Under the pieces are notes generated by a model, which was given only the letters and a program-made list of their open reading frames with translations, searched no databases and was not told where the DNA came from. Below are positions 1 through 10,195 of a stretch of 10,195 bases of DNA, in pieces. The DNA is from Phytoactinopolyspora endophytica (GTDB lineage Bacteria > Actinomycetota > Actinomycetes > Jiangellales > Jiangellaceae), in NCBI RefSeq assembly GCF_004138495.1, contig NZ_ML142850.1, positions 3,281 to 13,475 of the forward strand. Reading direction: 5' to 3'. Numbering within the stretch: the stretch's first letter is position 1; every line of letters starts with the position of its first letter. A program made the translations under genes and the position numbers.

Positions 1-414
1 AGGCGCCAGCAAGGCGGCAATCGATCCGGTATGAACGAGGTCAGCGGACTCGTCGATGATTCCGTCGAGCTTCCACTCGAGATCGAAGTCGTAGCTGACG
101 GTGCCGTCGGCGCAGAGGCGTGCGGTCGCGACCGACGTGCGCTTGCCTGCTTCCGCCGCGACGAGCCGAACAGCTGAACCGTCGAGCCAACGCCGGATCC
201 GGAACCCGTGCCGATCCTCCGCGATCCGGGTCGCGAGGCTGACTCGGCGGCCGAGACGCCCGAGAGCGACCGCGACATTCGCGGGGCTGCCGCCCGGTGA
301 CTCATCCACGGTGCCGTCCAACCGGTGCACGACATCGACGAGCGCTTCACCCACAACCAGGACCTTCCCGGCCACGACCCCATCAGCATCGATGCTGCTG
401 GTTTCAGCTGTCAT
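1..414 (-). CDS. PfkB-family sugar kinase (probable fructokinase), 3' part outside window
   Basis: This is the N-terminal 138 residues of a ribokinase/PfkB-family kinase; the reading frame stays open to the left edge. Visible family features are a first beta strand ending GEALVD (residues 22-27) and the substrate-site segment PGGSPANVAVALGRLG (40-55). These are followed by the 'D.HG' stretch and an RTSVATARL strand (92-100), all in the usual order. The ATP-binding C-terminal signature lies outside the window. ATG at 414 is preceded by AGGAGA with a 7-base spacer (422-427). It is the last gene of the array in view, 94 bases after the GH32 stop, with a strong hairpin between them. Family knowledge: such kinases phosphorylate fructose, ribose, KDG or related sugars. 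Context with GH32 and GH172 favours fructose to fructose-6-phosphate in the cytoplasm. The family is near certain; the substrate is inferred. Confidence 0.93.
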   Translation of the reverse strand, partial: MTAETSSIDADGVVAGKVLVVGEALVDVVHRLDGTVDESPGGSPANVAVALGRLGRRVSLATRIAEDRHGFRIRRWLDGSAVRLVAAEAGKRTSVATARLCADGTVSYDFDLEWKLDGIIDESADLVHTGSIAALLAP

Positions 415-442
415 TCTGCCGTCTCCTGTAGTGGTGGGCGGA

Positions 443-484
443 CGTCCTGCAACGCGAGTGCTATGCGCCATGCGTTGCAGGACG
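443..484 (-). other. Intergenic inverted repeat (13-bp perfect stem) before the kinase gene
   Basis: CGTCCTGCAACGC at 443-455 is perfectly complementary to GCGTTGCAGGACG at 472-484, with a 16-base loop. It lies wholly in the 94-base gap between the GH32 stop (509) and the kinase start (414), 28 bases upstream of the kinase ATG. No T-run follows on the minus strand, so a standard intrinsic terminator is not indicated. It could be an mRNA processing or stability element that sets kinase level relative to GH32, or a protein-binding dyad. Confidence 0.6.
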
Positions 485-508
485 CTTTGAGTTCAGGACA
501 CTCGTACG

Positions 509-1951
509 TCAGGCGTCCGGGAGTACCGCGGTGTCGAGGTTCCACACGTGGACGTATGCTTCTGCTCCTGACGTCACGGTCAGTTCCGGGTTCGACCAGT
601 ACACGCGCGTGGTCAGAGCAGCGCCGTCGCCGGTGAAGAGCTCGACGAGCGAACCGTCGACGAACACTGAGAACTCGCCCGTCCTCGGTCTCGGCACCGT
701 GAACTCCCGCGTACCCGCCGTTGAGTCGCTGACCTCGACGTTCACTATCGTTCCCGGAGGATCGACGCTGATGTTCAGTTCTGACTCCCCGGAGACGATC
801 GACCAGCCGCCGACGCCCTCATTCAGGTTCCCGGCCAGCTCGAGGGCGGGGCGGTCGATGACGACGCCCGTGGCCAGCTCAGCCTTGGTGACCACGGGAC
901 CGAGCCGCAGCCGCCGGAGCTCTGAAGCCGGCTCGGCCCGCGCTCGGTCTCCGTCAAGGGATACTGTCCGCGGCAAGGACAACGCGCCTACGTGCCGCAT
1001 CTCTGCCTGCGTCCGGGCCGGCACGCGCTCTTGTGCCCAGCCCCACATCAGGGTCCGCCCGGATTCGTCCGTGGTCACGGCAGGCGCGTAGAAGGCGTCA
1101 CCATAATCGAGTAATCCGACCTGCTCGCCGACGAAACGGCCGTCGGCGACGGTCCCTGCGAAGTACACCGAATGCATCAAGGGTTTCACCGCGTCCGGCA
1201 CCTGACAGCTGACGATGAGTAGTACCCGATCACCGGAGAATACGAGCTGCGGGCACTCCCAATGCTCGCCGAGATCGAGTCCGTCGCGGATACGCGGGGC
1301 ACTGTAGAAGATGCCGCGGTACTCCCACGACGTCGCGTCGCGCGACTCGTATAGCAGCACGGTGCCGTGCCTCTGACCGTCCACGGTCCCGCTGCCCAGC
1401 AGCATCTGCCATCGCTCGCCGTCGTGCCACACAAACGGGTCCCGGTGGTAGCCGCTCCCGAGATCGGCCGGCGGGGCGGGGATCAGCGGATTCGCGTCGT
1501 CCTTCGTCCACTCCGTCAGGTCCGCCGAACCCCATGCCCGGCACACCGACTCGATCCGGTCGTCATCGTCCCCGACCACGCCGGTGTAGTAGATGGCCGG
1601 GCGCCCACTCACCTCCCGCAGACAACCGGACCAGCAACCGTCCGAGTCCGGCATGCCATCCGAGTCGCGTGAACCGGGCATACGCTGCGGGCTCGGCGCG
1701 ATGGCGTCGTCGTGGCGGGTCCAGCGCACCAGGTCCGGCGACGACACATGCCCCCAACGCGGCGGGCCCCAGAACGGCGCATCCGGATTCGCCTGGAAGA
1801 ACAGGTGGTACCTCCCGTCCCACTGCACTGGGCCGTTCGGGTCGTTGATCCAGTTCCGGGCGCCGGTGACGTGGTACCGCGGCCGCCAGAAACCTGGCGC
1901 GGCCGTGTCGGCCGCTGGCGTCGTGGGCGTCGTCGGATCCGTCTGCGTCAC
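509..1951 (-). CDS. Glycoside hydrolase family 32, intracellular beta-fructofuranosidase
   Basis: The protein is 480 aa from the GTG at 1951. It has the full set of GH32 motifs: WINDPNGP at 34-41 (nucleophile D37), the YHRDP transition-state motif at 168-172 (D171) and HWECPQL at 230-236 (acid/base E232). A five-bladed propeller region is followed by the C-terminal beta-sandwich with VFVDGSLVELF at 429-439. Family activity is retaining cleavage of beta-D-fructofuranosides such as sucrose, inulobiose, fructo-oligosaccharides or levan. There is no signal peptide, so it should act in the cytoplasm on imported small sugars. The frame is open upstream to 2047, but that would run far into the preceding gene. 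The GTG at 1951 shares GTGA with the GH172 stop, typical of translational coupling, and GGAG lies about 10 bases upstream. Exact specificity cannot be read from sequence; context suggests it finishes the product of the GH172 enzyme. It contains one TTA codon (1112-1114). Confidence 0.95.
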   Translation of the reverse strand: MTQTDPTTPTTPAADTAAPGFWRPRYHVTGARNWINDPNGPVQWDGRYHLFFQANPDAPFWGPPRWGHVSSPDLVRWTRHDDAIAPSPQRMPGSRDSDGMPDSDGCWSGCLREVSGRPAIYYTGVVGDDDDRIESVCRAWGSADLTEWTKDDANPLIPAPPADLGSGYHRDPFVWHDGERWQMLLGSGTVDGQRHGTVLLYESRDATSWEYRGIFYSAPRIRDGLDLGEHWECPQLVFSGDRVLLIVSCQVPDAVKPLMHSVYFAGTVADGRFVGEQVGLLDYGDAFYAPAVTTDESGRTLMWGWAQERVPARTQAEMRHVGALSLPRTVSLDGDRARAEPASELRRLRLGPVVTKAELATGVVIDRPALELAGNLNEGVGGWSIVSGESELNISVDPPGTIVNVEVSDSTAGTREFTVPRPRTGEFSVFVDGSLVELFTGDGAALTTRVYWSNPELTVTSGAEAYVHVWNLDTAVLPDA

Positions 1952-3324
1952 TGCCTCGACTCCAGGAAGGAGGCACGGACCCGGCGTGCCTGCCCAGCGT
2001 TGGCCACCTGCCGCTCCCGGGTGTCCGCCGCACGCCGGGAGAACCATTCGGCGCGGTTCCGCTCGAACTCCGTCATCCGTTCGTCGCGCCGGCGCAGCAT
2101 CGCCTGGCGAACCTCGTCGAGCGTGTCCCGATCCGGCAGCGGCACACCGTCGGCCGGCGGCGACTGCGGCCGGCGGGGCAGCCGCTCGTCAACCGGCGGA
2201 ATCTCTAAGCGAGGGCCGGGCAGCGTCTGGTACCAGTACGCGGTGGACGACCAGTCGTCAGCGAGGTGGTTGGCGTGGCCGTGCTCCATCGTGACCCGGA
2301 TCTTCTTCTCGAACCGCACCGGGTCGGCGAGGTGGAACCGATAGCTGACCTGGTATCCGGGCACGTCACCCTCGTGCACGATGGTGCCGCAGAACGGGTA
2401 CGCGTTGCGTTGCATCCCCCAGGCCTGGTTGAAGTAGTCCTCGCCGCCGGTGCCGTGCATGCTGGGCGGCCAGCCGTCGTCGTCGATGAAGATCATGTCG
2501 TCGCCTTCGCCCCACCAGGTACCGGGGAAGTGCGCGACAGAGTGGTTGCAGCCGATGTAGTTGCCGGCGCCCTCGGTCTCCAAGATCACGTAGTTGCCGA
2601 CGCCGTCGAGGTTCGGCACCTGCGTCTCCAGGCTGTTGACCTGCAAGTCCGGCGCCCAACCATCGCACGGGTTCTCTCGCCGCCAGTGTGCGTGGAAATA
2701 CAGCGTGTCGTCCGGCAGTGGGTCGGCGTAGAGCTCGTAGTCGACGTAGTAGTACTGCACGTACGGGACGTCGTTCTGGTTCTCCACCTCGATCCGTGCC
2801 CGCGAGTTGAACGGCATCGGCAGGTAGCAGTTCAGCGCCGCTGGACCGCCGAACGTGAGCCGCTCCTCCTCCTTCACCGAAACCGTGAACGGCAGAGACG
2901 CGAAGTTCCCAGCTATCGAGTTTCCGATGCAGAAGAAGTCGCCGAGCGGGGCGACCACGCTCGGCTGTTCCTGGTCGTCCCAGTACATCCGGATCATCAC
3001 CTTCCGGTAGTAGTCCGGGTCCGTGATCTCCCAGTTCACGCCCAGCGCGTTGTGGATCTCCAGCATGGCGACACCGGCCTGACGCGGGTCGATCAGCCCA
3101 GGGCCGATGATCCGGCGGCAGGTCTGGGTAAGCCACAGGTGCGTAATGCACCCTGGGCCTTCCAGATCCGCGAGCACGGCCGTCTCGCCGGGCATGACGA
3201 CGAACGCGTCCTCGTTCCCACCGGTCTGGTCCCAGCTGGACACCCTGGCGCTGCGCGCCTGTCGGCGCTTGGCAGCCCGAGAGAGAAGATCATCGCCGAG
3301 CGCGAAGGGAAGGTTGTTCGACAC
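1948..3324 (-). CDS. DUF2961 / glycoside hydrolase family 172 protein (candidate alpha-fructofuranosidase / difructose dianhydride hydrolase)
   Basis: The protein is 458 aa from GTG 3324. DUF2961 (GH172) features in order: SSWDQTGGN at 29-37, GPGCITHLWLT at 56-66, the long jelly-roll core, WWGEGDD at 270-276 and GTGGEDYF at 291-298. In the characterised Bifidobacterium dentium enzyme (recalled from the literature) the nucleophile and acid/base are Glu270 and Glu291; the equivalents here are E273 and E295. There is no signal peptide, so it should be cytoplasmic. An ATG at 3432 would add 36 residues, but that stretch has only about 63% G/C at third positions, contains a 17-bp palindrome and lacks a nearby ribosome site. 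GTG 3324 has AGAAAGGA about 10 bases upstream. An 85-residue Pro-rich then highly charged tail ends the protein. The stop overlaps the GH32 start. Other GH172 members act on D-arabinofuranosides, so the substrate is inferred from neighbours. Confidence 0.9.
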   Translation of the reverse strand: MSNNLPFALGDDLLSRAAKRRQARSARVSSWDQTGGNEDAFVVMPGETAVLADLEGPGCITHLWLTQTCRRIIGPGLIDPRQAGVAMLEIHNALGVNWEITDPDYYRKVMIRMYWDDQEQPSVVAPLGDFFCIGNSIAGNFASLPFTVSVKEEERLTFGGPAALNCYLPMPFNSRARIEVENQNDVPYVQYYYVDYELYADPLPDDTLYFHAHWRRENPCDGWAPDLQVNSLETQVPNLDGVGNYVILETEGAGNYIGCNHSVAHFPGTWWGEGDDMIFIDDDGWPPSMHGTGGEDYFNQAWGMQRNAYPFCGTIVHEGDVPGYQVSYRFHLADPVRFEKKIRVTMEHGHANHLADDWSSTAYWYQTLPGPRLEIPPVDERLPRRPQSPPADGVPLPDRDTLDEVRQAMLRRRDERMTEFERNRAEWFSRRAADTRERQVANAGQARRVRASFLESRQ

Positions 3325-3407
3325 GAGATGCGGGTCCTTTCTGATTGGTACGTACTGGGTGGCTTCAACCGGCCTGGTTTCCTGCCACTGAATCCGCTGC
3401 GGACGAT

Positions 3408-3424
3408 GGACTCGATTCGAGTCC
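3408..3424. other. 17-bp palindrome in the permease-GH172 gap
   Basis: GGACTCGA-T-TCGAGTCC is an 8-bp perfect dyad with a one-base centre, in the 121-base gap between the MalG-like permease stop (3446) and the preferred GH172 start (3324). A one-base centre is poor for an RNA hairpin loop but good for a dimeric DNA-binding protein. It does not match the AATCGATT operator near 8050. It could be an internal operator, an RNA stem with opened central pairs, or chance. Confidence 0.4.
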
Positions 3425-3445
3425 CGTGACATGCGTCTATCGCTG

Positions 3446-4333
3446 CTACCCCTTGAGTCCTGACGCCTTGATCGACTCGATGATCTGACGCTGCAGCAAG
3501 AGGAAGACCAGCAGCGTCGGGATAGCCGCCAGCAGCGACGCGGCCATGATCAGGTTCCACTCCCCTCCGTACTGGCTCTGGAATGTGGCGATGCCGACCT
3601 GGACTACCCACAGGTCCTGGTCACGAGCGACGACGAGCGGCCACAGGAAGCTGTTCCAGGCGGCGAGGAAGGTGATGACGCTCAGCGATGCCAGCATCGG
3701 TGTGCTCAGCGGCAGCACAACTTGAACGAATCGGCGCAGGTAGCCGGCCCCATCCAGATCCGCCGCCTCCTCCAGCTCCTTCGGGAAGGACAGGTAGAAC
3801 TGGCGCATCAGGAACACCGGGAATGCGGTGAACGCGACCGGCAAGATGAGCCCTGCATAGGTGTTGTCCAGACCCATCCGGGTCACCACGTAGAACAGCG
3901 GCACCAGGATGACCGGCAGCGCGACCAGCAGCGTGCAGAAGAACATACCGAAAATGACCTCACGGCCGCGGAACCGCAGCCTCGCCAGCGCGTACCCGGC
4001 CATGGCGCCGAGCCCGACCAGGAGCACCGTGATAGCGACCGACGTCACCAGGCTGTTCAGCAGATACCGCGCGAACGGGATGCGAGTGAACACGTCGGTG
4101 ATGTTGTCCAGAGTTGGGTTGTCCGGCAGAAGGCTGGAGCTGGTCGACTCCTCTGGCGGCCGCAGTGCTCCGGAGAGCATCCATAGCAGCGGGAACAGCT
4201 GCACCGCCGCAAGCACGGTGGCGAGCACCAACGCCAGCATGGTCGACACTCGCGTGCCGCGCCGCCGACGGCTGCCGCGCATCGCCAGTGCACCTGCGCC
4301 TGTGCGTCGGCGGTCGGCCTCAGTCCCGCTCAA
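3446..4333 (-). CDS. Carbohydrate ABC transporter permease, CUT1 MalG-like
   Basis: This 295-aa inner-membrane permease has about six hydrophobic segments; the first is near residues 31-52, after a basic N-terminus. The EAA loop that docks the ATPase is clear: EAADLDGA at 189-196 with the conserved LP at 207-208. The C-terminus, IIESIKASGLKG, is typical of MalG-type subunits, where GLKG-like ends are common. The start is a TTG at 4333, chosen because AGGGAGG lies only 5 bases upstream. It overlaps the stop of the MalF-like gene by 14 bases, suggesting coupled translation. A later ATG (codon 18) is possible. It forms the channel with the preceding permease and takes sugar from the lipoprotein receptor. 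Substrate is inferred from the glycosidases downstream. Confidence 0.95.
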   Translation of the reverse strand: MSGTEADRRRTGAGALAMRGSRRRRGTRVSTMLALVLATVLAAVQLFPLLWMLSGALRPPEESTSSSLLPDNPTLDNITDVFTRIPFARYLLNSLVTSVAITVLLVGLGAMAGYALARLRFRGREVIFGMFFCTLLVALPVILVPLFYVVTRMGLDNTYAGLILPVAFTAFPVFLMRQFYLSFPKELEEAADLDGAGYLRRFVQVVLPLSTPMLASLSVITFLAAWNSFLWPLVVARDQDLWVVQVGIATFQSQYGGEWNLIMAASLLAAIPTLLVFLLLQRQIIESIKASGLKG

Positions 4334-5243
4334 AACGGCCTCCCTTGGTCAGCCAGAAAGCGATCCCGGTCAGCACCATCAGCGCCAGGGCGTACCAAAC
4401 CGCCATCGCCGACGCGTAACCGAACTGGTTGCCGCGGAACGCCTGCTGGTAGATGTAGAAGATTCCCAGGCTGGTCGAGTTCGCCGGGCCGCCCTCGGTC
4501 ATCACGAAGATCAGGTCGAACGCCTGTAGCCCGGCAAGCCCGGCGATCGTCGCCAGCACCAACGCGAAGAACGTCGTCGGCCGCAACAGCGGCAGCACCA
4601 CGCTGAACAGTGTGCGGAGGTAGCCCGCGCCGTCCAATCGAGCCGCCTCGAACAGATCACCCGGGATGTCCTGCAGCCCGCCGAGCAGGATGATCATGTA
4701 GAAGCCGACGAAGAACCAGATGCTGACGAAGACAACCGTCCACAGTGCCCAGTCCGGATCGCCGAGGAACGACGGCGGGTTCTCGACGCCGAGAGCACGC
4801 AGCCACGAGTCCACCACCCCCACGCGGTCTGCCAGCATGTACCGCCACACCAGACCGACGACGACCAGGCTCACTGTGTATGGGGCGAAGAAGGCCGCCC
4901 GGAAGAACGCACGACCCGGCAGGTTTCCGTTCACCAGCAGCGCCATCACCAGTGCCAGCACATACAGCCCCGGCACGAACGCCCCGACGTAGAGCAGCGT
5001 CACGCGCATGCTGTCCATGAACTGCGGGTCGTCGAACATGCGGCGGTAATTCTCCAGCCCGACGAAGTCCATCCGACCGAACCCATCGGCCGAGGTGAAA
5101 CTCAGCACGAACGCCATGAGCATCGGCACCAAGACGAAAACGCCGACGCCGATAGCCGACGGCGCCACGAACGCGTAACCGGCCAATGCCTCGCGTCGTC
5201 GAAGACTCATCCGTCCCGTCAACCGGCCGCTCAACCGGCTCAT
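4320..5243 (-). CDS. Carbohydrate ABC transporter permease, CUT1 MalF-like
   Basis: From the ATG at 5243 this is a 307-aa integral membrane protein with about six hydrophobic segments; the first (residues 21-48, AGYAFVAPSAIGVGVF...) follows an RRREAL basic stretch. The EAA loop is EAARLDGA at 199-206 with LP at 217-218, and the 'MTEGGP' turn at 248-253 is characteristic of MalF-type subunits. The start is uncertain. In-frame ATGs at 5366, 5345, 5339, 5243 and 5210 all lack a strong ribosome site. I prefer 5243 because its length matches the family and because the upstream stretch carries a stable inverted repeat and, near 5366, atypical codons. A start at 5366 would leave only 13 bases after the binding-protein stop. 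It overlaps the next permease by 14 bases. Confidence 0.93.
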   Translation of the reverse strand: MSRLSGRLTGRMSLRRREALAGYAFVAPSAIGVGVFVLVPMLMAFVLSFTSADGFGRMDFVGLENYRRMFDDPQFMDSMRVTLLYVGAFVPGLYVLALVMALLVNGNLPGRAFFRAAFFAPYTVSLVVVGLVWRYMLADRVGVVDSWLRALGVENPPSFLGDPDWALWTVVFVSIWFFVGFYMIILLGGLQDIPGDLFEAARLDGAGYLRTLFSVVLPLLRPTTFFALVLATIAGLAGLQAFDLIFVMTEGGPANSTSLGIFYIYQQAFRGNQFGYASAMAVWYALALMVLTGIAFWLTKGGRFERD

Positions 5244-5294
5244 CGGTCCGCCACCGTGCCGTTCGGTTCCGCCTCGCGGGTTGTCCCCGTCTTC

Positions 5295-5317
5295 GTACGC
5301 CGGCCTGGTGGGCGTAC
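5295..5317 (-). other. Stem-loop between binding-protein and permease genes
   Basis: GTACGCC (5295-5301) pairs with GGCGTAC (5311-5317) around a 9-base loop. It falls 63 bases downstream of the binding-protein stop, just before the first permease. Known precedent: stem-loops between binding-protein and permease genes (as between malE and malF) protect the upstream mRNA, so the receptor is made in excess. That role is inferred here. If the permease starts at 5366 the repeat is inside coding sequence. Confidence 0.4.
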
Positions 5318-5379
5318 CGCTATCTCGTGTGGAAGTCATCGTCATCAGGTCTGAAGTTCGAGGCATGAGACTGGCCGCC

Positions 5380-6909
5380 TCAGGAGCCGAGCGGGGCGCC
5401 GTCGTAGTCCGCCAGCGCGTCATTGATCCGTCCGTGGGCGTCCGCGGCCGCCTGCGCTGGGTCGACGCCGTTGAGCTGCGCGTCCTGGATGGCGTCGGTG
5501 ACGGCCTGGACCACCTCCGGAGTGAACCGCGGCTCGCCTCGCCCGTACGGTGTGTCGTCACTGTCGAGGTTGCCGGGGTCGAGTCCCAGGACATCGAACG
5601 CGGCGTAGGCCATCAACTCGTCCTGGTCGAACAGGCCGTCGTCGTTGGCCTTCTGCATCACCGATTTGCGCACCGGCAGGCTCTTCTTGGCGTCGAACGC
5701 CCATGTGACCAGGCGGTCGACGCTCTCCTCGCCGGCCAGCGCCCAGGCGCAGAACTCGGCGGCCGCCTCTGCGTGCGGGCTGTTCTTGTTCACGCAGAAC
5801 GCCCAACCGCCCATGTCGGTGATGGGGTCGGCGGAGGTGTCCGGGACCGGGAGCGGGAACATGCCGTACTCGAAGTCGGGCGCGCCCTCCTCCAGGAACG
5901 AGCCTCCGGCCGTCACCATCTGGGCCATCGCCGCGTAGCCGCTCGGCATGTTGGACACCAGGTCCCCGCCACCGCCGCCCTGCATGGTCCGCGGCGCCAC
6001 ACCCGCGTCGATCGCCTCCTGCCAGAATCCGAGTGCCGCCGCGGTCGCCGGCGAGTCGAAGGCCGATGCCAGCCCGGTCTCGTTGACGACGTCGCCGCCG
6101 GCCTGCCAGAGGAAGGGGTACCAGGTGAAGTTCTGGTAGACGTTCGGCGTGGTCTCGAAGAGGACGCCGAACTGGTCTCCCGTGGTGAGCTTGTCCGCGA
6201 CGTCGAGCAGCTGATCCCACGTCTGCGGGATATCGCCTTCGGACAACCCGGCCTCCTCGAAAGCCGCCACGCTGTAGAACATGGTCAGCGGTTCGCTTTC
6301 CATCGGGATGCCGTACACCCGGCCATCGACGACACGTGTGCTCAACGCCGACTCGTAGAAGTCATCGATGCCGTCGCCGAGCGCATCGGTGAGGTCGTAC
6401 AGCACGTCGCCGTTGTAGTAGCGCAGGAAGTCTCCGGGGCTGATGACGAACAGATCGGGACCGGAGCCGGCTGAGAACGCCGACTGCAGCTGCGTACCCT
6501 CGATGTACTCCGAGACCGGGATGTAGGTCAACGCGACCTGGACGCCGCCTCGCGCGTTCCACTCGTCCACGAGGTCGAGGAACCAGTCGCTCTGGGCCTC
6601 GACCGCGTAGCCACCGCCTTCCTGCGGCGCGTACCACTGCCAGAAGTCGATCACGTCGTTGCTGGTGCCAACGTCTCCCCCGGTGCCGGCTCCGGGGCCA
6701 TCACCGTTGTCGTTGCCGCAGGCCGTGAGAAATGCCCCGCCGCCGGCCAGTCCGGCACCAAGGCCGAGCGAGCTGGAGAGGAATCGCCGGCGGGAGAAGC
6801 CGGCTCGATGGCCGCCATAGCCGGAACGGCGACCTTCGCCACCATCGCGGGGTGTCCATAGCTTCCCCGGCGGCACCACGCCGCCAGAACGGTGTCGTCT
6901 GAAGCTCAT
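5380..6909 (-). CDS. Sugar ABC transporter substrate-binding lipoprotein (family 1, Tat-type signal)
   Basis: This 509-aa protein is the extracellular receptor of a CUT1 importer. An unusually long n-region (about 38 residues) leads to a twin-arginine motif SRRRF (39-43), a hydrophobic stretch and a lipobox LTAC at 61-64, giving Cys64 as the lipidated residue. The Gly/Asp-rich linker that follows is usual for lipoproteins. The mature part shows family-1 features: 'FWQWYAP', a 'GSGPDLFVISPGDF' strand-turn near 148-161, 'VYGIPMESEPLTMFYS' and 'GGWAFCVNKNS' near the second lobe. ATG 6909 has AAGGGA about 7 bases upstream. It begins 66 bases after the repressor stop with no terminator between them, so the two are probably co-transcribed. 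Aromatic residues in the mature region (FWQWY) suit sugar stacking. Ligand is inferred to be a fructose-based di- or oligosaccharide. Confidence 0.96.
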   Translation of the reverse strand: MSFRRHRSGGVVPPGKLWTPRDGGEGRRSGYGGHRAGFSRRRFLSSSLGLGAGLAGGGAFLTACGNDNGDGPGAGTGGDVGTSNDVIDFWQWYAPQEGGGYAVEAQSDWFLDLVDEWNARGGVQVALTYIPVSEYIEGTQLQSAFSAGSGPDLFVISPGDFLRYYNGDVLYDLTDALGDGIDDFYESALSTRVVDGRVYGIPMESEPLTMFYSVAAFEEAGLSEGDIPQTWDQLLDVADKLTTGDQFGVLFETTPNVYQNFTWYPFLWQAGGDVVNETGLASAFDSPATAAALGFWQEAIDAGVAPRTMQGGGGGDLVSNMPSGYAAMAQMVTAGGSFLEEGAPDFEYGMFPLPVPDTSADPITDMGGWAFCVNKNSPHAEAAAEFCAWALAGEESVDRLVTWAFDAKKSLPVRKSVMQKANDDGLFDQDELMAYAAFDVLGLDPGNLDSDDTPYGRGEPRFTPEVVQAVTDAIQDAQLNGVDPAQAAADAHGRINDALADYDGAPLGS

Positions 6910-6975
6910 GATGCGGTCCCTTCGTTGGATCCGATACGTGCTGTTGTCTGGGTGTGCTGTGGATCTAGGAGGTGA

Positions 6976-8016
6976 TCAGCCAGTCGCCTGGTCGAACTCG
7001 CATCCGCAAGAGCGCCGCACGTGCACGGTCGGCGGGACGACCACGGCGTTGACCGTACGGTCTGGGTCGGCGATGCGTTGGAAGAGCTGTTCAGCCGCGG
7101 TCCGGCCGATCTCCTCCACCGGCTGCGCCGCGACGGTGAGCGGCGGGTCAAGGAGGTCGAAGAACGGCTGGTCATCGAAGCCGACAACGGCGATGTCCTG
7201 TGGTACCCGCAGTCCGAGCCGCCGCACCGCCCGCAGGACGCCCAGTGAGATCAAGCCATTCGCACAGAACACCGCGCTCGGCGGCTCCGGGTGTCCGAGC
7301 GCTTCGATCGCCAGCCGCTCCCCGAGCTCGAACGTTCCCTGCACACCGACGGCATCAGTCATCTCGCCTTCGATGACCGTGAGCTCGGCACCTTCGGCCG
7401 CATCGACCGCGTCCCGGCACCCGTTCAGCCGTTCCCGGCTCGGTGTCGCGGCCGTGGTTCCCATCACGGCGGCGATCCGCCGGTGCCCGTGTTCGATCAG
7501 ATGCGAAACCAACTCGCGCGCCCCGGCCCGATGGTCGACGAGCACGGCGTCGAACGGGTCACCGGCCACCCGGCGGTCGAGCGCGACGGTGGGGATACCG
7601 GCATCGAGAAGCTGCTGCAATGGTCCGACCTTCTCCGCCGACGGCGCGACGATGACACCGGCTACGTTCTCGCCGATCATCAAGTCGAGGTACAGCTGTT
7701 CCTGCTCCAGATCCTCGTCGGTGTTGCAGAGCAGAACCGCGTGCTTGTGCTCCGCGGCGACTCCCTCGATGACTCGGGCTACGGAGGCGAAGTACGGGTT
7801 CTCGACGTCAGAGATGACCAGCCCAATGGCGTCAGCCCGCTGCTTACGCAGCGCCTTCGCCGCCCGGTTCGATCGGTACCCGAGGGACGCCGCGGTCTCC
7901 CGGACCTGTCGCGCCATCTCCGAGCTGACGCCCAGTTCACCGGCGAGCGCACGGGACACGGTCGCGGTCGACACACCCAGCGCCTGGGCGATCTCCCGGT
8001 ACGTCGGTCCCGCCAT
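6976..8016 (-). CDS. LacI-family transcriptional repressor
   Basis: This 346-aa protein begins with a LacI helix-turn-helix (YREIAQALGVSTATVSRAL, residues 6-24) and a hinge region RAAKALRKQ (51-59). The periplasmic-binding-protein-like effector domain starts at AIGLVISDVENPYFASV (63-79). The C-terminal part contains 'VGFDDQPFFDLLDPPLT', the usual LacI signature near the dimer interface, and ends with a Cys-Gly-Cys. ATG 8016 is supported by AGGAGAGGAG (8024-8033) seven bases upstream. A tandem palindromic operator lies 28-54 bases upstream of the start, so autorepression is likely. As the first gene of the array it would be transcribed with the transporter and glycosidase genes. The inducer is probably the imported sugar or a product; it cannot be read from sequence. 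Confidence 0.96.
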   Translation of the reverse strand: MAGPTYREIAQALGVSTATVSRALAGELGVSSEMARQVRETAASLGYRSNRAAKALRKQRADAIGLVISDVENPYFASVARVIEGVAAEHKHAVLLCNTDEDLEQEQLYLDLMIGENVAGVIVAPSAEKVGPLQQLLDAGIPTVALDRRVAGDPFDAVLVDHRAGARELVSHLIEHGHRRIAAVMGTTAATPSRERLNGCRDAVDAAEGAELTVIEGEMTDAVGVQGTFELGERLAIEALGHPEPPSAVFCANGLISLGVLRAVRRLGLRVPQDIAVVGFDDQPFFDLLDPPLTVAAQPVEEIGRTAAEQLFQRIADPDRTVNAVVVPPTVHVRRSCGCEFDQATG

Positions 8017-8023
8017 GTCCGGA

Positions 8024-8033
8024 CTCCTCTCCT
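8024..8033 (-). promoter_or_regulatory. Ribosome binding site of the LacI-family gene
   Basis: AGGAGAGGAG on the minus strand, seven bases before ATG 8016. It is the strongest Shine-Dalgarno match in the window and fixes the repressor start. Confidence 0.8.
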
Positions 8034-8043
8034 GCCGATGAGA

Positions 8044-8070
8044 CGTAATCGATTACGCAATCGATTACGC
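8044..8070. promoter_or_regulatory. Tandem LacI-type operator
   Basis: CGTAATCGATTACG at 8044-8057 is a perfect 14-bp palindrome. It is followed by the near-copy GCAATCGATTACGC at 8057-8070, sharing the core AATCGATT (8047-8054 and 8059-8066). The cores are 12 bp apart, roughly one helical turn, so two dimers would bind adjacent faces. LacI-family sites are typically such CG-centred, A/T-flanked palindromes. Position next to the LacI-family gene makes it the natural operator. I see no second good copy elsewhere in the window. Confidence 0.82.
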
Positions 8071-8080
8071 CTAATGTAAA
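8052..8080 (-). promoter_or_regulatory. Candidate promoter of the operon
   Basis: On the minus strand, TTTACA (8080-8075) is followed after 17 bases by CGTAAT (8057-8052). These match 5 of 6 and 4 of 6 of the vegetative -35 and -10 consensus. The second operator half lies in the spacer, and the first overlaps the -10 and start region, a geometry suited to steric repression. Predicted from sequence only. Confidence 0.5.
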
Positions 8081-8432
8081 CCACACTCCGGTCGCGCACA
8101 AGTGCCCGCCAGTGACACGGCCGAATGAGACCGTAACCGTGCTCGCCGCTGCCGGCTCGTCACCTCAGGCTGCCAGTGCCATCCGCAGGGCCGAAGCCCT
8201 AGACGCAGGCGACATCGCGACCGTGACCGTCGAGCTCATCGACCTATGACCAGCGTCGTCGGTTCCGCGCACGGCGGCATCGGGGGCAGAATCAAGGTGT
8301 GCGTGGACGCTTCGTAGTCGCGACCTCGGCGATCGATATCGCCGACGAGTTCAACGCTGCCTTAGATGACAGCGCAGCCGTCCCGACGCTCTCAGTCGAC
8401 ATCGCGCCGACGGATCCGGGCTAGGATGACGG
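8081..8432. other. Divergent intergenic region with weak coding-like pieces
   Basis: This 352-base gap between the operon promoter and the SARP gene contains no gene I can support. Two short plus-strand frames look mildly coding, with about 74-75% G/C at third positions. One is a 45-codon frame at 8112-8249 (GTG start, ending VTVELIDL). The other is a 41-codon frame at 8299-8424 (GTG start, containing ATSAIDIADEFNAAL, ending two codons after TDP). They are in different frames and lack ribosome sites, so they may be remnants of a decayed gene or chance. There is an 8-bp inverted repeat TCGGCGAT/ATCGCCGA (8326-8345, 4-base spacer) and a small AGGGC-CGAA-GCCCT hairpin (8187-8200). I see no terminator, tRNA or repeat array. 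Confidence 0.45.
8396..8427 (+). promoter_or_regulatory. Candidate promoter for the SARP gene, possibly leaderless
   Basis: TAGGAT at 8422-8427 is a good actinomycete -10 hexamer and ends five bases before ATG 8433, so transcription could start at the ATG itself. TCGACA at 8396-8401 is a 5-of-6 match to the -35 but the 20-base spacing is long. The same bases include AGGA, which could instead be a ribosome site with a 6-base spacer. Confidence 0.35.
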
Positions 8433-10195
8433 ATGCGGTTCCTGGCGCTTGGCCCGGTGGGCGTCGTCACTAGCGGACGCAGGGTCACGCTCGCGCGTGG
8501 GCAGCAGCGGACCATCCTGGCACTGCTGCTCGCGGGCGATGGCGAGATCGTCAGCGCCGACCGGCTGGTCGACGCGCTGTGGGGATCGTCTCCCCCGTAC
8601 ACCGCCCGGAAGTCGCTGCAGAGTCACGTCTCCCGGCTGCGCCACCAGCTGCTGTCGCTGGCACCCGGCGAGCCGACACCACTGAAGAGCGCGCCCGACG
8701 GTTACCGCCTAGACCTCACCGTCCACGAGTTCGACGCGCGCATGTTCCGGGACCTGTTAGGGCAGGCGAAGCGTAGCCGCGACCCACGGGAGAAACTCGC
8801 CCTGCTCGACCAGGCGGAGAGCTGCTGGGACGGCCCGGCGTTCGGCGACCTGGCCACGCATCCCGGATTGACGTCCGCGGCCCGCCACCTCGACCAACAG
8901 CGTGAGGCCGCGGCGGCCGACCGCATCGACGCCCTGCTCGCGCTCGGCCGGCACGACGAGACACTCCAGACCCTCCCCCGGGTCGTGGAAGCGGAGCCGT
9001 TCGACGAGCGGGCCCACGGCCAGCTGATGCGCGCCTTCGTCGCGGCCGGCCGACGCGCCGCGGCGCTCGCCACCTTCCAGGAGGTGCAGACCCGGCTCCG
9101 CGACGAGCTGGGGGTCGACCCGTCGCCTGAGCTGCGAGGATTGCACGAGGAGATCCTGCGCCAGGACACGGTGCCGCCCCCTCCCCCGCTGTCTCCGACA
9201 ACGCCACCGGCCGAGTCCACACGGCGGTCGGATCCGCTGCTGGGGCGGGACCGTGACATCGAGATCCTGAGCACCTGGCTGCGGAGCGCCTCGCTGGTGA
9301 CGCTCACCGGGCCTGGCGGCATCGGCAAGACTCGTCTGGCCGAGCGCCTCGTGGAGCACACGGCCGCGACCTGGCGCGACGGCGTCATACCTTGCGCACT
9401 GGCGCACGTGCGGGACGCCGAGGGCGTCGGCGGTGCGCTCATCACCGCGCTGGCGATCCAACCGTCCGGTGGACAGTCGGTGACCGACGCGCTGGTGTCG
9501 GGTCTCGGGGACCGGCACCTGCTGCTGTTGCTCGACAATTGCGAACATGTGCTCGAAGCCCTGACCCCGCACGTGGCAGCGATCGTGGCGGGTTGTCCCG
9601 GCGTCACGGTGCTGGCCACGTCACGCGAGCGGCTTCGGTTGTCGAACGAGCGGGTGTGGCCGGTGACGCCGCTCGGTGTCCCGTCTGAAGGGGCACCGAC
9701 CGCCGATGTGCTGGCCACCCCTGCCGGGAGCCTGTTCCGGATGCGGGCACAGGCCGTGGATCCGGCCTTTCGGCTCAGCGACACGAACGCCGGCGCCGTG
9801 GCCGAGCTCTGCCGCCGCCTCGACGGCATGCCGCTGGCCATCGAGCTCGCCGCCGCCCGCACCCGGGCCCTGGCGCCGGCCGCGCTGGTGGAGCGGCTCA
9901 ACCAGCGCTTCGCCGTACTCGCCGGTGGGCCGCGGCACGAGGGCGGCCGGCACCGCACCCTGGAGGCGGTGGTTGCATGGTCCTACGACCTGTTGGCCGC
10001 AGATGAGGCCGACCTCTTCGACCGCCTCGCGGTGTTCGCCGGCGCGGCGCCGTTGCAGGCGATCGAGGCGGTGTGCGCCGACAGTCACCTCCCGACCTGG
10101 AAGATCGCCGGCCTGCTCGGCGAACTCGTCGACAAATCGATGGTCGTGGCGCAGCACGACGGTGACGACCTGCGCTACCGGCTGCTCGACACCAT
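8433..10195 (+). CDS. SARP-type AfsR-like regulator with STAND (NB-ARC) ATPase, 3' end outside window
   Basis: There are 587 complete codons and the frame runs off the right edge. Domains in order: an OmpR-like winged helix (about 1-95, with LARGQQRTILALLL, DALWG and SHVSRLRHQL) and a BTAD helical domain (about 98-243, ending DELGVDPSPELRGLHEEIL). A Pro-rich linker (247-260) leads to an NB-ARC ATPase with Walker A GPGGIGKT (293-300), Walker B LLLLLD (to D368), the TSRERL sensor (396-401) and GMPLAIELAA (465-474). A winged-helix-like region follows; TPR or other sensor repeats would be expected beyond the edge. Known relatives (AfsR, DnrI-type) activate secondary-metabolite or developmental genes as DNA-binding transcription factors, with ATP hydrolysis modulating activity. 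It is divergent from the sugar operon and its targets are unknown. One TTA codon lies at 8757-8759. Confidence 0.95.
   Translation, partial: MRFLALGPVGVVTSGRRVTLARGQQRTILALLLAGDGEIVSADRLVDALWGSSPPYTARKSLQSHVSRLRHQLLSLAPGEPTPLKSAPDGYRLDLTVHEFDARMFRDLLGQAKRSRDPREKLALLDQAESCWDGPAFGDLATHPGLTSAARHLDQQREAAAADRIDALLALGRHDETLQTLPRVVEAEPFDERAHGQLMRAFVAAGRRAAALATFQEVQTRLRDELGVDPSPELRGLHEEILRQDTVPPPPPLSPTTPPAESTRRSDPLLGRDRDIEILSTWLRSASLVTLTGPGGIGKTRLAERLVEHTAATWRDGVIPCALAHVRDAEGVGGALITALAIQPSGGQSVTDALVSGLGDRHLLLLLDNCEHVLEALTPHVAAIVAGCPGVTVLATSRERLRLSNERVWPVTPLGVPSEGAPTADVLATPAGSLFRMRAQAVDPAFRLSDTNAGAVAELCRRLDGMPLAIELAAARTRALAPAALVERLNQRFAVLAGGPRHEGGRHRTLEAVVAWSYDLLAADEADLFDRLAVFAGAAPLQAIEAVCADSHLPTWKIAGLLGELVDKSMVVAQHDGDDLRYRLLDT

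Follow-up and report, generated by a model that had tools for sequence, protein, structure and literature searches.

We analysed a stretch of 10,195 bp from the genome of Phytoactinopolyspora endophytica (contig NZ_ML142850.1, positions 3,281 to 13,475; the window below), in which a LacI-type repressor, the binding protein and two permeases of a CUT1 importer, a GH172 enzyme, a GH32 enzyme and a PfkB-type kinase are encoded one after the other. An initial annotation had placed these genes together on one strand, and the family matches bear this out, all of them lying on the minus strand. Judged from its sequence, the operon is probably a LacI-controlled system by which alpha-D-fructofuranosyl disaccharides are taken up and broken down, with difructose dianhydride I (DFA I) and inulobiose as the likeliest substrates. 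The genome measures 7.6 Mb and is 94% complete, and the window lies on the contig that we call C2. The features are, in the direction of transcription of the operon:

8073..8101, minus strand: possible promoter of sigma-70 type (TTGTGC-17-TACATT), picked out by eye next to the operator on its upstream side
8044..8069: operator of LacI type made of two CGYAATCGATTRCG palindromes that overlap in tandem, 28-53 bp ahead of the start of lacI
6976..8016, minus strand: lacI-family repressor gene, 346 amino acids (Peripla_BP_3 5.2e-41, LacI HTH 7.1e-9)
5380..6909, minus strand: gene (sbp) for a CUT1 solute-binding lipoprotein, 509 amino acids (SBP_bac_1 1.1e-35)
4320..5243, minus strand: CUT1 permease gene A (permA), ATG 5243 being the likely start (BPD_transp_1 2.8e-13)
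3446..4333, minus strand: CUT1 permease gene B (permB; BPD_transp_1 4.9e-17)
1948..3324, minus strand: GH172 gene of alphaFFase1 type, 458 amino acids, predicted DFA I synthase/hydrolase (DUF2961 3.5e-85)
509..1951, minus strand: GH32 beta-fructofuranosidase gene, 480 amino acids (Glyco_hydro_32N 4.9e-63)
443..484, minus strand: hairpin with a perfect 13-bp stem between GH32 and pfkB, a possible terminator or processing signal
1..414, minus strand: 5' part of a PfkB kinase gene, fructokinase-like (PfkB 1.1e-10 on the truncated part)

The order lacI-sbp-perm-perm-GH172-GH32 recurs in three more genomes of the Jiangellaceae and is therefore not a chance arrangement; lacI orthologues 78-83% identical to that of the window stand at the head of the operon in three relatives. 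The genes had been described as separated by short gaps or overlaps, and two overlaps are indeed present (14 bp between permA and permB, 4 bp between GH172 and GH32), but the remaining gaps are wider, at 66 bp (lacI-sbp), 94 bp (GH32-pfkB), 121 bp (permB-GH172) and 136 bp (sbp-permA). Read from the DNA, the likely starts are GTG 3324 for GH172, with the ribosome-site-like AGAAAGGA 10 bases upstream, GTG 1951 for GH32, and ATG 414 for pfkB, whose coding region is cut by the low end of the window. By hydropathy, neither the GH172 nor the GH32 protein has a signal-type hydrophobic stretch at its N-terminus, in agreement with the claim that both lack export signals. The binding protein has an N-terminal hydrophobic stretch whose last residues are LTAC, which we take to be a lipobox.

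The arms of the hairpin (443-455 and 472-484) form a perfect 13-bp inverted repeat with a fold z of -3.55. No U run follows it 3' on the operon strand, and on the opposite strand part of it resembles a terminator weakly, such sites being no commoner there than in shuffled sequence; by eye, the repeat sequence was not seen after GH32 in Jiangella aurantiaca or in the family relative G004. An Rfam scan gave 0 matches. To the right of the operon lies a divergent regulator gene of SARP/AfsR type (8433-10193, plus strand), and in the left flank a further gene of lacI type and one for a D-2-hydroxyacid dehydrogenase converge on the operon.

The GH172 enzyme and its link to GH32

The GH172 protein matches DUF2961 (PF11175) over the full length of the profile and, in a phmmer search of PDB sequences, is by far closest to alphaFFase1 of Bifidobacterium dentium (7v1v, 569 bits), followed by 4kq7 (204), DgGH172c (177) and ExoMA1 (107). 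A structure model of moderate confidence (mean predicted local distance difference test score, pLDDT, 65.7), built from 13 sequences and predicting a long C-terminal helix at 404-457, also has 7v1v as its top Foldseek match, with 53% identity over 445 columns (E 5e-42). This identity exceeds the 47.45% limit of the homologue set of PMC8605356. Eleven of the twelve alphaFFase1 site residues given in that source are identical in the window protein (N31, D33, E85, K147, Y187, W267, E270, T288, E291, D292 and W298, in alphaFFase1 numbering). Among them are the catalytic E270 and E291, the -1 subsite residues W267, D292, W298 and Y187, and the +1-subsite residues E85 and K147, which correspond to E125 and K187 in the 494-residue frame of the window GH172. 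Of the side-chain ligands of calcium, N31 and D33 are kept and N272 is replaced by D, the commonest letter among relatives. Since alanine variants of alphaFFase1 at E85 and K147 keep their activity on p-nitrophenyl arabinofuranoside and retain less than 5% of that on inulobiose (PMC8605356), this pair is the best sequence marker for a disaccharide substrate.

Only one full-length GH172 was found in the window genome. A second DUF2961 match, on contig C4, is a frame of 139 amino acids with no sugar genes around it by eye, and we did not count it as an enzyme. Four of the 22 genomes searched within the family have a full-length GH172 of the window type, and the remaining 38 of the 60-genome set gave nothing better than E 3.6e-15; this patchy distribution suggests a history of gain and loss of the operon.

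A scan of GTDB genomes confirmed at least 585 relatives, of which the best 80 loci, with 97 GH172-like frames, were used, so the sample leans to window-like GH172 proteins. A quick tree of 99 rows (94 of these frames, the window protein and four solved chains; three frames excluded) came from a short search only and carries a long-branch warning, ExoMA1 being among the long branches. On this tree the window GH172 and alphaFFase1 share a 70-row clade (support 99), with ExoMA1, DgGH172c and 4kq7 outside; the phylogenetic check proposed by the initial annotation accordingly groups the enzyme with alphaFFase1, far from the D-arabinofuranosidase ExoMA1. Within the 70-row clade, the window protein forms a clade of its own with two Jiangella and five Streptomyces copies (support 100), marked by 28 clade-specific residues relative to 56 other copies with E85 and K147, and the window enzyme thus belongs to a distinct GH172 type. 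All five Streptomyces loci with the window type (L006, L007, L008, L009 and L010) carry a second GH172. Four of these second copies fall into a 33-row clade with alphaFFase1 (support 90), each with an adjacent GH32, and the fifth, a piece at the edge of its locus, was not placed on the tree. At one of the loci (L006:6103-11467), GH32 and PfkB genes lie between the two GH172 genes.

The residue pair goes together with a neighbouring GH32 gene. Among the 84 of 97 frames whose flanks reach at least 1.5 kb (13 were dropped), 50 of the 57 copies with E85 and K147 have GH32 at 300 bp or less from GH172, against 0 of the 27 others (Fisher 7e-16, kinship ignored). In the set with 5-kb flanks (68 of 97 frames), the 49 copies with the pair have GH32 adjacent in 42 cases, a CUT1-like permease within 6 kb in 46, a LacI-type gene within 6 kb in 39 and a PfkB or ROK kinase within 4 kb in 18; the corresponding counts among the 19 other copies are 0, 9, 6 and 0. 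GH32 was searched for with the protein of the window, so that a distant GH32 may escape, and one locus scored as GH32-free (L027) has a GH32-domain frame after GH172. By parsimony, the residue pair changes four times on the tree, giving two independent contrasts on supported branches and four on all branches.

The tandem operator and its distribution

The tandem palindrome before lacI arose in 0 of 200 shuffles, and the perfect CGYAATCGATTRCG pattern occurs in the 7.6-Mb genome only at the two operator sites, the reversed control pattern giving 0. The operator is conserved before lacI in relatives. A search allowing one mismatch covered eight family genomes, comprising the four carriers of the operon and four chosen from 18 non-carriers. 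Each carrier (G000, the window genome; G004, G016 and G019) has exactly two perfect sites, in tandem, and no perfect operator site was found in the non-carriers G005, G006, G013 and G018; single one-mismatch sites number four in G000, five in G004 and three in G005. This distribution argues strongly that the repressor has a single target, and hence for a dedicated operon. The tandem operator and its single-target distribution are new here.

The possible promoter has counterparts at the equivalent place of both Jiangella loci, where TTGACG is followed after 17 bp by a second hexamer, and G004 shows a poorer fit, both judged by eye; a promoter scan with strict criteria reported no site at the operator. 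We infer that the LacI protein represses the operon from this site.

Partner enzymes, kinase and importer

The best PDB match of the GH32 protein is the beta-fructosidase 1uyp (158.8 bits), and its sequence contains NDPNG, RDP and EC, which we take to be GH32 motifs. It belongs to a subclade apart from the Arthrobacter-type partner. The window genome holds two GH32 matches in all. On contig C20 (L146:3184-9199) there is a second operon of LacI, solute-binding protein, two permeases and GH32, without GH172, with a SARP-like frame seemingly near it, judged from the N-terminus only.

The C-terminal part of the kinase, beyond the window, matches the PfkB fructokinase 7fca (151 bits), which is also the best PDB match of the J. 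aurantiaca orthologue (233 bits); on the NCBIfam fructokinase model the window part scores 47 bits and the orthologue 104, against a cut-off of 450. At another locus (L050), the gene after GH32 codes for a ROK kinase (363 bits on the ScrK fructokinase model, cut-off 400), an unrelated kinase family in the same slot. Since a PfkB or ROK kinase is near only 18 of the 49 copies with E85 and K147, the kinase is the least constant part of the system, and pfkB, behind its hairpin, is optional to the operon. In Jiangella anatolica (L005:2189-5635), a PfkB gene stands upstream of the operon, accompanied by one more LacI-type gene and by a second GH32 that differs from the first.

No importer ATPase was found among the eight frames of the window or the two left-flank genes scanned. 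Six OB_MalK matches elsewhere in the genome could supply a MalK-type ATPase to power the importer. The initial annotation had spoken of a complete route from uptake to glycolysis; completeness was overstated, given an operon without an importer ATPase and with an optional kinase behind a hairpin.

Four Clostridia loci (L056:14325-18247, L059:13334-16045, L067:15500-18196 and L073:5483-8257) carry a GH172 pair and a protein of about 900 amino acids. The pair consists of an alphaFFase1-like copy with K147R and Y187F and a divergent second copy. Of the four large proteins, three have MGH1-like matches (best 2.8e-10) and two matches to the GH116 catalytic domain (best 4.8e-6), the L056 member being without a Pfam or PDB match; a model of the 895-residue Blautia protein reached a pLDDT of 45. 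They are possibly an unassigned glycosidase partner of GH172.

Proposed route, alternatives and known systems

In the route that we propose, the lipoprotein and the two permeases would import the intact sugar, powered by an ATPase encoded elsewhere. The cytoplasmic GH172 would then turn DFA I into inulobiose by opening its alpha-fructofuranosidic bond through a retaining mechanism, with E331 as nucleophile and E309 as acid/base (494-residue frame). GH32 would cut inulobiose to two fructoses and thereby pull the pathway forward, since the published equilibrium lies about 9:1 toward DFA I (PMC8605356), and the PfkB kinase would probably yield fructose-6-phosphate. The repressor, bound to the tandem operator beside its own promoter, would come off in response to a pathway sugar. 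The reading as a fructofuranoside operon, already advanced in the initial annotation, is supported by the place of GH172 on the tree, the retention of E85 and K147, the adjacent GH32, the fructokinase-like kinase and the single-target operator.

Several observations weigh against this reading. In vitro, alphaFFase1 cleaves alpha-D-arabinofuranosides well (PMC8605356), and the residues specific to the subclade of the window GH172 include G330, just before the nucleophile, N291 and A122. Within 6 kb, GH32 is found near 52 of the 57 copies with E85 and K147 and also near 2 of the 27 without them, and the contrasts for the link between the residue pair and GH32 (on average 1.5 in the same direction, none opposite) are too few to test. 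The 16-kb stretch of the relative G004 holds no kinase. The binding protein is close to its counterparts in Jiangella, G004 and Streptomyces jeddahensis, scores 174-188 bits against the four Clostridia loci and at most 75 bits against the remaining loci, so the importer is unlike that of most GH172-GH32 loci; in those four Clostridia loci, three from Lachnospiraceae and one from an unassigned member of the Eubacteriales, a search with the window protein found no GH32.

A narrower variant, compatible with the proposed route and following the same logic, would make diheterolevulosan II (DHL II), alpha-Fruf-(2-6)-Glc or another dianhydride the natural substrate and DFA I a side substrate, and we entertain it tentatively. 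The window type forms its own fully supported clade, its fixed differences, with G330 right before the nucleophile, leave room for another alpha-fructofuranoside, and alphaFFase1 itself also produces DHL II (PMC8605356); moreover, the retention of two GH172 genes at five Streptomyces loci suggests different jobs. Conversely, the catalytic residues and those of the -1 and +1 subsites are kept, and the window genome shows a single full-length GH172. It is rather doubtful that the subclade represents a paralogous alpha-fructofuranosidase with a substrate other than DFA I; actinomycetes with both types would then degrade two different cyclic or alpha-linked fructose disaccharides, and the window operon, equipped with its own importer, would be the second type standing alone. 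An ordinary operon for fructo-oligosaccharides or sucrose, with GH172 as a passenger serving to store inulobiose, or to detoxify it, in the form of DFA I, would fit the equilibrium toward DFA I (PMC8605356) and the ability of GH32 alone to cope with beta-fructosides. We consider it improbable, as the genome already has a plain GH32 operon without GH172 (L146) and the two genes stay together, with a 4-bp overlap here and adjacency in 42 of the 49 copies with the pair and 5-kb flanks.

An operon for D-arabinofuranose oligosaccharides, in which GH172 would be an exo-alpha-D-arabinofuranosidase, seems very improbable. True D-arabinofuranosidases exist in GH172 (PMC10115798, PMC10509167), alphaFFase1 has arabinofuranosidase activity in vitro, the importer is next nearest to that of the four Clostridia loci, which have two GH172s each and where GH32 was not found, and GH183 genes are present in two operon-carrying Jiangella genomes. 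The strong GH183 matches of these carriers lie on a contig other than that of the operon, at a distance of about 2 kb from another GH172 with a low score (G002:C39/G019:C39 and G003:C227/G016:C227, each pair taken as one assembly), so the arabinan set of Jiangella looks apart from the operon. Against this alternative, E85 and K147 are retained in the window GH172, and GH32 and a fructokinase-like kinase would lack a role. Neither DUF4185/GH183 nor DUF608/GH116 gave a match in the window genome, which is 94% complete; as positive controls, the GH183 search matched 3 of 3 genomes and the GH116 search 3 of 14 control genomes. We rejected a D-arabinan locus on the presence of GH32 and on GH183 and GH116 not being found in the genome.

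For the family Jiangellaceae, the findings extend a little-studied catabolic route; no paper on this operon in the family was found among the open-licence papers searched. One repressor with one target promoter offers a clean genetic handle, the co-occurrence of two GH172 types in Streptomyces allows a direct test of substrate specificity within GH172, and the window subtype deserves assay. The route has been discussed for a mouth bacterium in connection with caramelised sugar; in Jiangellaceae, enzymatic inulin breakdown may be the likelier source of the sugar. A beta-helix family search aimed at GH91, the enzyme that would form DFA I from inulin, gave 12 matches at the level of the beta-helix family.

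Compared with characterised systems, the operon is closest to the founding locus of GH172, BBDE_2039-2043 with a LacI gene in B. dentium, which likewise combines LacI, GH32, GH172 (DUF2961) and an ABC importer and whose enzymes lack export signals (PMC8605356). The same source proposes the same uptake and breakdown route, including the splitting of inulobiose by GH32, and cites unpublished results for growth of the host on DFA I. With 53% identity to alphaFFase1, the window GH172 keeps the active site of that enzyme; it differs in belonging to a distinct subclade, and the excerpted text of PMC8605356 names no kinase. The three-stage inulin-DFA I pathway proposed for the actinomycete Streptomyces davawensis (BN159_0187, 0193 and 0194) also has GH172 beside GH32, together with an extracellular GH91 enzyme that forms DFA I (PMC8605356). 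In the DFA-III catabolism of Blautia and Arthrobacter, an intact dianhydride is similarly imported, opened to inulobiose and split by GH32 to fructose, and two Blautia strains have a sugar kinase near these genes, as here; the opening enzyme, however, is a GH91 DFA-IIIase acting on DFA-III (PMC11538131). The D-arabinan locus of Microbacterium arabinogalactanolyticum shares GH172, an ABC importer and intracellular exo-enzymes, but contains GH183 and GH116, with no GH32 named in the excerpts of PMC10509167; on the tree its ExoMA1 is widely separated from the window GH172, and in the aligned part, which does not include the E85 region, a gap stands opposite K147. The window operon is thus a known system, not a new one, its route having already been proposed in print for B. 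dentium.

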